Shown: positions 3,756-64,000 of the stretch, piece by piece
How the letters are laid out: each line of letters opens with the position of its first letter
How positions within the stretch are numbered: position 1 is the first letter of the stretch
NCBI RefSeq assembly: GCF_018130785.1
Contig: NZ_JAFCJT010000002.1
Span: forward strand, 496,001-560,000
Origin: Bradyrhizobium liaoningense
Lineage (GTDB): Bacteria; Pseudomonadota; Alphaproteobacteria; Rhizobiales; Xanthobacteraceae
Reading direction: 5' to 3'
DNA length: 64,000 nt
Translations under genes and position numbers: made by a program
Notes under the pieces: generated by a model
Seen by the model: the letters and a program-made list of their open reading frames with translations, nothing else
The model's database searches: none
Told to the model about the DNA's origin: nothing

Positions 3756-4568
3756 TCATTTGTCCTTGAATTGCTCGTGCATGGAGAGAGAATATTCGGT
3801 CGGCGTAATGCCCCACTTCTTTTCCGCCGCCACGATGAAGCCGGTCTTCATCCAGTCCTTTGTCGTATCTTCGAGCAGCTTCTGAAGACTGGTGTTTTCG
3901 AGCGCGACGGCGATCATCCATGGCGATGGCAGAACGCCTTTGAGCGGGAGGTCATAATCCGTCTTCCACTCGTCCTCGAGCAGCTTGCCTTGCAGGAAGG
4001 TCTGATCGTAGACATAGCCGATGCAGTTGCCCTGCTTCATGGCGAACAGAGGCTTCTCCGAGCCGTCGAACGCAACGATTTCGGGGCCGTAGGATTTGGC
4101 GACGTCCTTGTTGTACCAGGCCCCCGACGTGGCGCAGACGGGTTTTCCCTTGAGGTCGGCCCAGTCCTTGATGCCGGACTTCTTGTTGAGGAGGATGTTC
4201 ACATAGTCCGAGTAGTACAACGGTTCGATGGCTTGAACCACGCGACGGCGTTCCGGCCTGTCCGACATGGTCGCGATCAGCAGGTCAACCTTTCCCTGCT
4301 GAAGAAATTCGATTCTGTTGGAGGCCGCGACCGGAACGAGTTCGAGTTTGACTCCGAGGCGCTTGGCAATGTCTGCGGCGAGATCCGGCTCGATGCCGAC
4401 CACGTTGCCCGTGGGATCGCGGAAGCCGAAGGGCTTGTAGTCAGCCTTGACGCCGACATTCAACGTGCCGCGCTGCTTGATGGCATCGACACCATCGGCG
4501 GCTTGGGCACTGCCGAGCATCAGGAGCAACGCAGCACCTGTCATCATGGAACGGACAATGTCTCTCAT
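3756..4568 (-). CDS. Periplasmic amino-acid-binding protein of the ABC transporter
   Basis: 270 aa solute-binding protein (SBP_bac_3 family). Residues 1-23 form a signal peptide ending AQA. The mature start (IKQRGTLNVGVKADYKPFG) and the GIEPDLAADIAKRLGV segment are typical of polar amino-acid receptors, as is MSDRPERRR (the TxxRxxxxxF region that holds the ligand carboxylate). It delivers substrate to the permeases at 2075-3669. It lies 76 nt downstream of the oxidase gene, so the five genes probably form one transcript. Confidence 0.9.
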   Translation of the reverse strand: MRDIVRSMMTGAALLLMLGSAQAADGVDAIKQRGTLNVGVKADYKPFGFRDPTGNVVGIEPDLAADIAKRLGVKLELVPVAASNRIEFLQQGKVDLLIATMSDRPERRRVVQAIEPLYYSDYVNILLNKKSGIKDWADLKGKPVCATSGAWYNKDVAKSYGPEIVAFDGSEKPLFAMKQGNCIGYVYDQTFLQGKLLEDEWKTDYDLPLKGVLPSPWMIAVALENTSLQKLLEDTTKDWMKTGFIVAAEKKWGITPTEYSLSMHEQFKDK

Positions 4569-61510: not shown

Positions 61511-62701
61511 CTACGCTACCCGCCTTGCCGCGCCCGCCTTCGTCAGGATCGTATCGAGACAATCGATCATCTCGGCGATCTCGGCCCGCGTGACGTTCAG
61601 CGCCGGCATGAAGCGCAGCGTGTCGAGCTGCGGCGCGTTCAGCAGCACGCCGGCCGCGAACGCCTGGGCGACGATGCCCGGTGCGATCGGAAGCTTGAGA
61701 TCGAGCGCGAGCAGGAGCCCGCGTCCCCGCACGCCGCCGAGACCGTGCCGGGCCGAGACCTTCTGCAACTCGCTTTCGAGCAGCAGGCCGGTCTCGGTCA
61801 CCGCCTTCAGGAAGTCGGGCTTGCCGACCTCCGCGAGCACTGCAAGCCCCGCCGCGCACATGATCGGGTTGCCGTTGAAGGTGCCGCCCTGATCGCCGTG
61901 CTCGAAGCAGGAGGCGCGTTCGGTCGCGAGCAGGGCCGCGAGCGGCACGCCGCCGCCGATGCCCTTGCCGAGCGTCATGATGTCGGGCGCGATCCCGGTG
62001 TGCTCGTAGTGGAAGAGCTTTCCGGTCCGGCCCATGCCGGTCTGGATCTCGTCGAAGATCAGGAGCAGGCCGTGTGCCTCGGTGAGCGCGCGCAGTTCCT
62101 GCAAGAACCGATCGGTCGCGGGCCATACGCCGGACTCGCCCTGGATCGGCTCCAGCATCACCGCGACCGTGTTGTCGTTGATCAGCTTTTCGACCGAGGC
62201 GATGTCGTTCAGCTTCGCTTTCTTGAAGCCGGCAACCTTCGGCTCGAACAGCGGCTCGAACGCCTTCTTGCCCGAGGCGGACATCGTCGCCAGCGTCCGG
62301 CCGTGGAAACCGCCTTCGAAGCTGATGATCTCAAACGCGCCGCCCTTGTGGAGGCTGCCATATTTGCGCGCGAGCTTGATCGCACCCTCGTTGGCCTCCG
62401 CGCCCGAGTTGGCGAAGAACGCTTGGTCGAACGCGCTGCTTGTGACCAGCGCCTGCGCCAGTTTCAGGCTCGGCTCGTTGTAGAAGGCCGGGCTCGGCGT
62501 CAGCAGCCGCTTGGCTTGCGCGGTCAGCGCGTCGGCGATCCCAGGCGGGGAGTGGCCGAGGCAGTTGACGGCCCAGCCTTGCACGAAATCGAGATAGCGC
62601 TTGCGGCTGTCGTCCCAGAGGTAGGAGCCGGCGCCGCGGACGAACACGGCCTTGGGCCGTGCGGTGATGTCCATCAGCGCGTCGTACGGATGCGTCGTCA
62701 T
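61511..62701 (-). CDS. argD: Acetylornithine transaminase family aminotransferase
   Basis: 396 aa class-III PLP aminotransferase. Family features are [72 protein letters not shown] and the Schiff-base lysine in [13 protein letters not shown]. The C-terminal [14 protein letters not shown] is diagnostic of ArgD-type enzymes, which convert N-acetylglutamate semialdehyde to N-acetylornithine in arginine synthesis. ATG 62701 follows AGAGGAG. A 30-codon Arg-rich leader ORF and an attenuator-like terminator lie upstream. No argF neighbour is visible. Confidence 0.87.
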
Positions 62702-62747
62702 GTCGAACTCCTCTGGGGGCGGGTGAAAAAGGCATGCGAAAAGCAGA

Positions 62748-62774
62748 AAGGCCGCACCTTGCGGGTGCGGCCTT
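62748..62774 (-). terminator. Intrinsic terminator between the leader ORF and argD (attenuator 3:4 hairpin)
   Basis: On the minus strand: AAGGCCGCACC / GGTGCGGCCTT, 5-nt loop, then TCTGCTTTT. The stem is perfect over 11 bp. It lies 27 nt after the leader stop codon and 46 nt before the argD ATG, so read-through is required for argD transcription from the upstream promoter. The 5' arm can alternatively pair with the leader (see attenuator entry). Confidence 0.88.
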
Positions 62775-62801
62775 CTCGAAAACTCGGCTGAACTCAGTGG
62801 T

Positions 62802-62894
62802 TCAGCGGCGTCGTCGGACATGGCGCACCCTCTCATCGTCGCGGAAGCGACGACGGAGCATTTCGGTGCGCAGGTGGGTCCGAGCCTTGATCAT
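62802..62894 (-). CDS. Putative arginine-rich leader peptide of argD
   Basis: 30 codons, [20 protein letters not shown] then [10 protein letters not shown] and TGA. Twelve of 30 residues are Arg, including RRR at 14-16 and RRRR at 27-30. The ATG is only 8 nt downstream of the proposed -10 element, so it lies at or next to the transcript 5' end, as in the described trp leader of Sinorhizobium. It would act by ribosome stalling, not as a protein. Too short to judge by homology. Confidence 0.68.
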
Positions 62895-62902
62895 GGGGCG
62901 CG

Positions 62903-62932
62903 TCCCTACTGCCGAAGGGCAGGGCTTGTCAA
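62903..62932 (-). promoter_or_regulatory. Promoter of the leader-argD transcript
   Basis: On the minus strand: TTGACA (62932-62927), 18-nt spacer, TAGGGA (62908-62903). The -35 is a perfect match to sigma-70 consensus, the -10 is weak. The expected start point is at 62894-62897, at or next to the A of the leader ATG, so a leaderless leader mRNA is predicted. Confidence 0.6.
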
Positions 62933-62951
62933 CCCCATGCTCGGGCAGCGT

Positions 62952-63155
62952 TCACCCCTCAACGACCGCGCGAGCGTCGCGTTCACGAGCATCGAGCGAT
63001 GGTCCCTGGCCGGCACTGTAGGACGGCCTCGCCTCAAGGATCGGCGCCTCCACCCCGACGGCCATCAGCGTTGTGACGATGATCGTCAGGGCAACGTACA
63101 CGATCAAACCTGCGGGGGTCTCGGCTGCGCCGAGGCGGTCGAGCGCTGCCAGCAC
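62952..63155 (-). CDS. Possible small single-span membrane protein
   Basis: 67 aa from a GTG at 63155. A membrane helix (AGLIVYVALTIIVTTLMAVGV) lies between a short amphipathic start and a hydrophilic tail. It ends just upstream of the argD leader promoter, on the same strand. The opposite frame is also open, and no good Shine-Dalgarno precedes the GTG, so the call is tentative. Confidence 0.4.
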   Translation of the reverse strand: MLAALDRLGAAETPAGLIVYVALTIIVTTLMAVGVEAPILEARPSYSAGQGPSLDARERDARAVVEG

Positions 63156-63453
63156 GGGCAGCTTCTGCTGTCCGAGACTGCCTTATCCTGAGGGGCGAGA
63201 TCGATCGCGGTCGCGATCGGTAGCCGCCCGCTCCGGGTCGCCCTTGCGGCGATAAAGCTTCGCAGTGCGTAGCTTGCTCAGCGAGTTCATCGCGCCAATC
63301 GGCCCCCGTAATCGTGGTTGTATGTCATTTGATTCCGGTACAGAAACCAACGAGCCTCTAGCGCGTTTGTGATCGCAGGACGCAAATTGGTTCGAACCGA
63401 ACGTATCCCGACTCAGACCAAGAAGACGGGACCAACCAGATAGTTTAAACGCC
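63156..63453. other. Intergenic stretch, no gene seen
   Basis: No coding frame recognised on either strand. It contains the divergent upstream regions of the small membrane-protein candidate and of the partial gene at the right edge. Confidence 0.4.
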
Positions 63454-64000
63454 TTGTCCGATACGCCTTATCCGATCGACCTCGACAGCATTCGCGGCGC
63501 GTTTCCGCCGGGCATCGAGGCGCCCTCCCTGCTGGTCGACTTTGCCGGTTGGCTGAACGGGCGCCCCTGGGGCAGCGTCGGCTGCTTCTCCCTGCAAGGC
63601 CAGTTCTCCGATTCCGCGCCGATCGTCGACGGCAGCCCGTTGCGCGACAGGTTTTCACTGTTCATGCGGCTGCCGGATGGCTCGGCCGTCGGCGGCTGGT
63701 ATGGCGCGGGCCTGGACCGGGACAATCCGCCGATCGTGGGTCTGGGCTCCGAGGGCGACTACGAGCTGCTGGCGCCGAGCCTCGACGGGTTGCTGGCGAA
63801 GCTGACGTGGCAGCAATTCGACAAGCCGTGGAGCGACCTGCTGCCGCATGACGAGGTCGAGTGCCAGACGGACGCGCTCGCGCGATGGCTTGCCGGACAG
63901 CCGGCCGGCGACAAGGCGGCATGCGACGACGGCGCGCCTGAGCTGCCCGATTTCCGCGGCTTCGTGGAAAAATGGAGCCGCGATCGCGAGGACTATTGGG
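63454..64000 (+). CDS. Partial gene, possible SMI1/KNR4-like protein (runs off the right edge)
   Basis: At least 182 codons without a stop. The translation begins SDTPYPIDLDSIRGAF from a TTG at 63454 and continues with LLVDFAGWLNGRPWGSVGCF, FMRLPDGSAVGGWYGAG and LGSEGDYELLAPSLDGLLAKL. The last segment resembles the end of SMI1/KNR4 (SUKH) domains, which are found in immunity and regulatory proteins; I give this only as a possibility. The TTG lacks a strong Shine-Dalgarno and the frame is open further upstream, so the start is uncertain. The 3' end is missing. Confidence 0.6.
   Translation, partial: MSDTPYPIDLDSIRGAFPPGIEAPSLLVDFAGWLNGRPWGSVGCFSLQGQFSDSAPIVDGSPLRDRFSLFMRLPDGSAVGGWYGAGLDRDNPPIVGLGSEGDYELLAPSLDGLLAKLTWQQFDKPWSDLLPHDEVECQTDALARWLAGQPAGDKAACDDGAPELPDFRGFVEKWSRDREDYW

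Follow-up and report, generated by a model that had tools for sequence, protein, structure and literature searches.

Here we report a leader upstream of argD, in a 64-kb stretch of DNA (the window), that comparative and folding data mark as very probably a ribosome-mediated transcription attenuator which senses charged tRNA-Arg and controls argD. Its Arg-rich open reading frame (ORF) and RNA off-switch probably let argD be read only at arginine shortage; we infer both this direction of response and the sensing of charged tRNA-Arg rather than free arginine. Ribosome-mediated attenuation itself is known, and what is new is the amino acid specificity (arginine), here combined with a composite antiterminator and a predicted 5′ UTR of almost no length. 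A trp-type arginine attenuator, if true, would fill a gap in the amino acids sensed by leader translation, and do so beyond one genus. The same reading would give a function to an orphan Rfam sRNA. The near-absent 5′ UTR in leaders of different families would also offer material for studying how leaderless translation keeps pace with RNA polymerase.

The predicted leader and its parts

The features of the locus are as follows:

62927..62932, minus strand: -35 element TTGACA (direct reading; TTGAC-to-ATG spacing conserved)
62903..62908, minus strand: -10 position TAGGGA (direct reading; weak match, 18-nt spacer from TTGACA)
62802..62894, minus strand: leader peptide ORF, 30 codons with 12 Arg (ATG at 62894, 8 nt after the -10)
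62865..62871, minus strand: segment 1, GCGCACC (MFE structure)
62847..62855, minus strand: control codons 14-16, Arg-Arg-Arg, CGT CGT CGC (direct reading)
62824..62830, minus strand: segment 2, GGGTGCG, pairing with the terminator 5′ arm (folding and per-sequence comparison)
62805..62816, minus strand: second Arg cluster, codons 27-30, within the antiterminator stem (reading and folding)
62787..62806, minus strand: hairpin GCTGAAC...GTTCAGC including the leader stop codon (MFE)
62763..62830, minus strand: whole antiterminator (MFE with the ribosome held at RRR)
62747..62775, minus strand: intrinsic terminator, 12-bp stem and T-rich tail (terminator scan, fold and alignment)
61511..62701, minus strand: argD, acetylornithine transaminase of the PRK03715 (NF002985) type, 396 aa (NF002985, Pfam Aminotran_3)

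Direct reading of the minus strand confirmed the TTGACA, the 30-codon ORF with its 12 Arg, the terminator and argD on which the original prediction was built, and its pairings (GCGCACC/GGTGCGC, GGGTGCG/CGCACCC and the terminator stem) are complementary as claimed. The transcript is predicted to start 0-3 nt before the leader ATG. At related loci the -10 takes the forms TATGGC, TATTGC and TACGGA, and a generic promoter scan reported no site anywhere in 62000-64000. In the MFE structure of the full-length RNA, a protector hairpin spans the ORF, built from segment 1, CGGAC (62882-62878) and the RRR codons. The antiterminator is composed, in order, of segment 2, CCGACGAC, the stop-codon hairpin GCTGAAC/GTTCAGC, GTTTTCGAGAAGG and CGCACCC, and the core of this hairpin (GCTGA..TCAGC) is visible in most rows of our leader alignment, A1. 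The leader RNA folds at -76.9 kcal/mol compared with -51.8 for shuffled sequence (z = -6.4; 0 of 200 shuffles as low), and a search of both strands of the window for an ATG-initiated ORF, 12-45 codons long and containing RRR, that has a terminator no more than 90 nt downstream gave a single case, the argD leader. A Shine-Dalgarno-like AGAGGAG lies upstream of the argD start at 62701, and the ArgD of the window scores 645.9 bits against NF002985 (cut-off 568). At the locus no Rfam family exceeded its threshold (the best, Thr_leader, reached 18.3 bits against a gathering score of 55), the T-box covariance model gave no match up to E = 5, and the leader peptide had no match in NCBIfam and Pfam up to E = 1.

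We propose that transcription would begin at or 1-3 nt before the leader AUG, and that a ribosome would load without a Shine-Dalgarno site and then follow RNA polymerase. When Arg-tRNA is scarce, the ribosome would wait at the Arg-Arg-Arg codons, and segment 2, together with the final part of the ORF and the conserved bases behind its stop codon, would fold with the terminator 5′ arm into the long antiterminator, allowing argD to be transcribed. When Arg-tRNA is plentiful, the ribosome would cover segment 2 and the ORF end, blocking the antiterminator, the protector hairpin would form behind it, and the terminator would end the RNA near 62747.

Conservation of the leader in Bradyrhizobium and its family

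In all 25 genomes of our first same-genus sample, the argD ortholog is preceded by a homologous leader ORF, and such an ORF is found at 119 of 129 loci from the genus and family, the other ten being nine loci without argD and one cut by a contig end. RRR is present in 110 of the 119 leaders, a count that includes one leader (L126) assigned the wrong frame, and Arg accounts for 37% of leader residues. Among the 248 genomes of the family sample, an argD ortholog (E ≤ 1e-100) was found in 27, of which 17 belong to the same genus and ten to six other genera (g26, g36, g42, g53, g59 and g61), and 26 of these 27 orthologs have the leader in common. In the exception (L085), whose ArgD is 64% identical, the leader differs, reading MQYASTNARRRRRARRFSAGAWDMRTR, and is followed by a terminator of its own. 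A family search with the leader peptide of 30 aa was uninformative, with 97 of 248 genomes at E ≤ 1 and mostly weak Arg-rich matches, and family conservation rests in its place on the argD search and a covariance model. This model, R1, was built from 47 leaders (A1) and matches 259 of 265 genus genomes at E ≤ 0.01, three of them weakly (0.001-0.004), and 256 at E ≤ 1e-15; four of the six genomes without a match are less than 90% complete. In the family sample R1 matches 27 of 246 genomes at E ≤ 1e-6, namely 26 of the 27 with an argD ortholog and one weak match (G043, E 2.8e-7) without an ortholog, and by these matches the leader tracks the window-type argD.

A scan of named genomes, with a first gap of 8-16 nt compared with 6 in the window leader, gave 20 stretches, which do not amount to a census; 18 of them hold argD and the leader, and two (L170, L182) are without argD. 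Named Bradyrhizobium rows lie among the same-genus rows of the argD tree, which identifies the genus as Bradyrhizobium. The distance from TTGAC to ATG is 35-38 nt at 50 of 50 related loci, where for three rows, in which an in-frame ATG further upstream gave 21, 25 and 21 nt, the homologous ATG was taken as reference. The Arg codons, the start position, the terminator and the 2:3 pairing, for which the original prediction had proposed a check in relatives, are kept both in the genus and in other genera.

The leader may also be translated, judging from the behaviour of its reading frame. Of 102 distinct leaders that could be parsed, 101 have a whole number of codons (28-31) between the ATG and the homologous TGA, the sole exception being a parse of 71 codons and two further leaders being unparsed, whereas the spacer from the TGA to the terminator varies irrespective of frame, with 26, 32 and 44 leaders in the three frame classes. 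Two leaders (L125, L135) were left out of these length-frame counts and of the entropy and tree analyses, and were included in the arm-pair comparison below. Mean entropy by codon position is flat (0.55, 0.60 and 0.63), so codon positions alone are no proof of translation; third positions are also constrained by RNA pairings. The Arg codon after the valine of VRR (codon 26 in 29-codon leaders; 62805-62816 in the window) is CGA in 52 of 52 distinct leaders, which is probably due to the CGACGA pairing in the antiterminator.

Pairing segments and the moving ribosome

In several lineages, a change in segment 2 is matched by changes in both arms of the terminator. Among the 119 leaders, segment 2 and the 5′ arm occur in 38 distinct combinations, and the cognate duplexes average -14.63 kcal/mol compared with -13.81 when the arms are permuted (0 of 5000 permutations as low), a control in which relatedness remains. 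Segments were taken per sequence, since L001-type leaders shift segment 2 by one base in A1, where four rows with 28-codon leaders (L015, L016, L018 and L072) are in addition misaligned around a three-base gap. For example, the arm GCGCCC is found with segment GGGC and 3′ arm GCGC in three leaders (L020, L023 and L024), the arm CGCAACCC with segment GGGTTGCG and 3′ arm GTTGCG in L135, and the arm CGCAACCGA with segment TCGGTTGCG in L138. Set against the consensus arm, 11 of 15 unusual arm pairs are more stable, two are equal and two less stable (L172, L141), and the arm type changes at least six times on the argD tree (106 rows). The terminator stem is kept in A1, and the RNAalifold consensus has two of 11 terminator pairs changed on both sides, and none in the protector helix. 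The compensatory changes that were anticipated in all four segments are present in segment 2 and the terminator arms, whereas the 1:2 helix is nearly invariant, so that covariation neither supports nor refutes the pairing of segments 1 and 2.

To model the switch we folded each nascent leader through the terminator 5′ arm with 28 nt blocked by the ribosome. When the ribosome stands where the Arg run begins, an average of 9.0 pairs is expected between the arm and the downstream coding region (at least five in 49 of 49), compared with 1.7 when it stands at the stop (at least five in 7 of 49) and 5.2 with no ribosome (28 of 49). As the free nascent RNA is antiterminated in 28 of 49 at equilibrium, the model requires earlier formation of the protector hairpin. 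A codon-by-codon scan of 47 distinct leaders, with A-site offsets counted from the first Arg of the run, gave at least five pairs in 47 of 47 at offsets -7 to +2, in 46 leaders at +3, and in none of the 47 at +7 to +16. On the upstream side the proportion declines, reaching 24 of 45 at -12. In these models, the Arg run sits just before the point where a moving ribosome would destroy the antiterminator, and the proposal that a stall at RRR frees this structure while a ribosome further on blocks it is borne out in silico (47 of 47 against 0 of 47). Stalls upstream of RRR also free the antiterminator, which counts against the attenuator reading and means that folding alone does not single out RRR. 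The run-minus-stop difference averages 7.19 in the real leaders and 2.99 after synonymous recoding, with 143 of 940 recodings reaching the real difference and, in six of the 47 leaders, more than half of them doing so.

The antiterminator that emerges is one long hairpin, in which GGGTGCG pairs with CGCACCC, the last Arg codons pair with GTTTTCGAGAAGG, and GCTGAAC/GTTCAGC with the stop codon forms the tip; such a fold explains why the bases that follow the stop codon are conserved. The 7-bp helix between segments 2 and 3 that had been put forward as the antiterminator is present, but the structure is longer and extends over the final Arg codons, the hairpin at the stop codon and the conserved GTTTTCGAGAAGG.

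Distant argD loci, BcKCsr7 and other readings

Distant argD relatives have unrelated predicted leaders of the same plan, an RRR ORF followed by a terminator, at 16 of 45 loci. The 45 divergent PRK03715-type loci comprise L085, L088, 19 loci drawn from a sample of the phylum (matches in 26 of 299 genomes, seven of these from the own genus) and 24 from one further order (34 of 220 genomes matched, from which 30 loci were taken, 24 new and six already in the set, and four genomes were left out); plasmid records held no relative at E ≤ 1e-110. Under a strict test, which asks for an RRR-containing ORF of 12-45 codons that opens with ATG and has a terminator in the next 90 nt, the 16 passing loci come from eight families as labelled by the search tool, while dinucleotide shuffles of the same regions pass in 1 of 1800 and contain an RRR ORF alone in 68 of 1800. 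Runs of three of any other residue score at most 1 of 45 each, none of five loci with an alpha-type argD passes, and a scan of the 45 loci in full on both strands found 17 passing ORFs in the 16 loci, all upstream of argD. The Bradyrhizobium group itself passes at only 24 of 49 loci, because its terminator tail is less T-rich, with an RRR ORF at 48 of 49; DDD also scores 11 there. Six of the 29 distant loci that fail look by eye like weaker or looser versions. At three loci (L153, L160 and L166) a strong terminator, GGGTCACAGACAATGTCTGTGACCC, stands before argD, the upstream ORFs hold only RR, and no clear Arg-run leader was seen upstream of the gene. Just downstream of argD at L192 (2777-2953) lies a Mn2+ riboswitch (yybP-ykoY, RF00080, 106.2 bits), and at L156 (1408-1504, plus strand) a sub-threshold match to the Rfam Trp_leader (29.9 bits, E 0.048) adjoins the argD 3′ end.

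Promoters were compared in 22 leaders, the 16 strict ones and six chosen by eye (L088, L157, L163, L190, L194 and L207). The best promoter-like match, searched 3-12 nt from the ATG, lies 6-8 nt before it in 20 leaders, a spacing favoured by the choice, for some leaders, of an in-frame or overlapping ATG beside the promoter-like site. This match reaches at least nine of 12 consensus bases in 15 of the 22, compared with 0.9% of single-base shuffles, and one of the 22 leaders has a Shine-Dalgarno-like site. The mean fraction of the arm that is paired at the 16 loci is 0.62 with the ribosome at RRR, 0.47 at the stop and 0.50 with shuffled spacers, and four of the 16 reach at most 1 of 40 shuffles in the antiterminator test, one of them (L198) being the same at run and stop; this modelling weakly suggests antiterminators at the distant loci. 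The original prediction spoke of alphaproteobacteria; the predicted system extends beyond that class and beyond the leader sequence of the window.

One of the distant leaders coincides with a catalogued RNA. At L161, a match of 92.6 bits to RF02884 (BcKCsr7, Burkholderia sRNA 7; gathering 59) begins 13 nt ahead of the leader ATG and runs through to the terminator end, about 70 nt before argD, and the BcKCsr7 consensus encodes MNRFLSALRRRRSPLLTDAAGSSRTRA (starting MNRFLSALRRRRSPLL). Like the window leader, this consensus has an ATG, an RRRR leader peptide and a terminator, and it stands directly before argD at L161; unlike the window leader, it is filed as an sRNA gene, and its model has no match in the window's genome, in 14 control genomes or at the other 17 of the 18 loci given to it. 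From this correspondence we infer that BcKCsr7 is the terminated argD leader, and the terminated RNA has probably already been seen under that name. More tentatively, and with rather more doubt than confidence, we consider an old and widespread arginine attenuator of PRK03715-type argD in parts of the alpha- and betaproteobacteria, whose near-leaderless Arg-run peptide would often be rewritten while the codon run, the start at the transcript end and the terminator are kept, and whose terminated RNA or peptide (BcKCsr7) might possibly also act in trans.

Known models such as the fungal arginine attenuator peptide and the ornithine-sensing SpeFL leader raise the alternative of arginine-dependent nascent-chain arrest, in which free arginine would stall the ribosome on the Arg-rich peptide in the exit tunnel and thereby set the RNA structure. 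The conservation of the residues NRT, DD and VRR in the Bradyrhizobium group would fit such a peptide, and a polybasic nascent chain can slow ribosomes. However, many of the conserved codons are fixed at the third position (ACC, CGC, GTC, CGA), which the RNA pairings fit better, and the leaders of the distant loci share little beyond their Arg runs. A stall at RRR at high arginine would moreover antiterminate, the wrong sense for a biosynthetic gene, and we regard arrest of this kind as improbable.

We give slightly less credence still to the idea that the terminated leader is chiefly a trans-acting sRNA or small protein, comparable to rnTrpL/peTrpL of Sinorhizobium, with control of argD a minor role. 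The filing of BcKCsr7 as an sRNA speaks for it, as does the trans activity of the S. meliloti trp leader peptide (PMC7298713), and a function in trans is compatible with attenuation, but genomes with R1 are nearly the same set as those with the window-type argD, and it is the terminator-pairing segments that are conserved. The least plausible reading, to which we attach very little weight, is a constitutive terminator beside a chance Arg-rich ORF, Arg codons being common in GC-rich DNA. CGC-rich DNA easily gives Arg runs, the leader residues are 37% Arg, and RRR ORFs alone arise in 68 of 1800 shuffles; against this, the R1 leader is found in 256 of 265 genomes with length changes that stay in frame, and the combination of RRR and terminator lies only upstream of argD and appears in 1 of 1800 shuffles.

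Attenuation by a ribosome waiting at Arg codons, the reading we prefer, has well-known counterparts. Leader-peptide attenuators have been described in Proteobacteria for trp, his, leu, ilv, thr and phe, and the S. meliloti trp leader starts at its own AUG. The argD leader shares with these systems a short ORF with runs of the regulated amino acid, a terminator and an alternative antiterminator, and differs in its amino acid, arginine, in an antiterminator that includes the leader stop and last codons, and in a predicted 5′ UTR that is generally close to absent, both in alphaproteobacteria and in other Proteobacteria. In the textbook picture, ArgR-type repressors govern arginine biosynthesis in bacteria, with T-boxes in this role in Firmicutes. 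T-box leaders are described before arginine genes in that phylum (PMC1262725); both they and the argD leader would read tRNA-Arg charging and control termination or initiation of an arginine gene, but T-boxes bind tRNA directly, whereas the argD leader is a putatively translated leader without an Rfam T-box match. In the Salmonella speF leader, as described in PMC6386406, pausing at consecutive Arg codons of the short upstream ORF orf34 refolds the mRNA at low arginine, which resembles the argD leader; orf34 has two Arg codons and controls an ornithine decarboxylase via Rho, RNase G and translation, unlike the intrinsic terminator before an arginine biosynthesis gene found here. For Pseudomonas carA, a gene that serves both arginine and pyrimidine synthesis, a leader peptide and attenuation have likewise been proposed, but the account in PMC4997734 ascribes the attenuation to pyrimidines, with arginine acting transcriptionally, unlike the arginine sensing proposed for argD. 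Our search of the open-access literature (subscription papers such as the Vitreschak 2004 comparative study being outside its scope) turned up no report of transcription attenuation by an arginine leader peptide ahead of a gene for arginine biosynthesis, and neither "argD" nor "arginine" occurs in the main text of a large survey of premature terminators (PMC2965389). Leaderless mRNAs are reported to be common in B. japonicum, with 320 mapped starts 0-10 nt before the start codon and 192 exactly there (PMC4842269).

The window-type argD is patchy in the family (27 of 248 genomes) and 66-68% identical to that of some members of a distant order (loci L188-L211), which suggests horizontal transfer, perhaps together with the leader. 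The window's genome contains a second argD-like gene, 45% identical and located on a different contig near an HslO-like reading frame, which we take for part of the usual argD-argF-hslO group (argF being presumed) and count against the attenuator reading. No leader ORF was seen upstream of this second argD (L086). The region at about 3800-3880 on the minus strand (G000:C27) holds a promoter-like TTGACA..TAAGAT, directly followed by a terminator-like hairpin, GTGCCGCCCTTAAAAGGCGGCAC / TTTCGTTTT, at the predicted transcript start.
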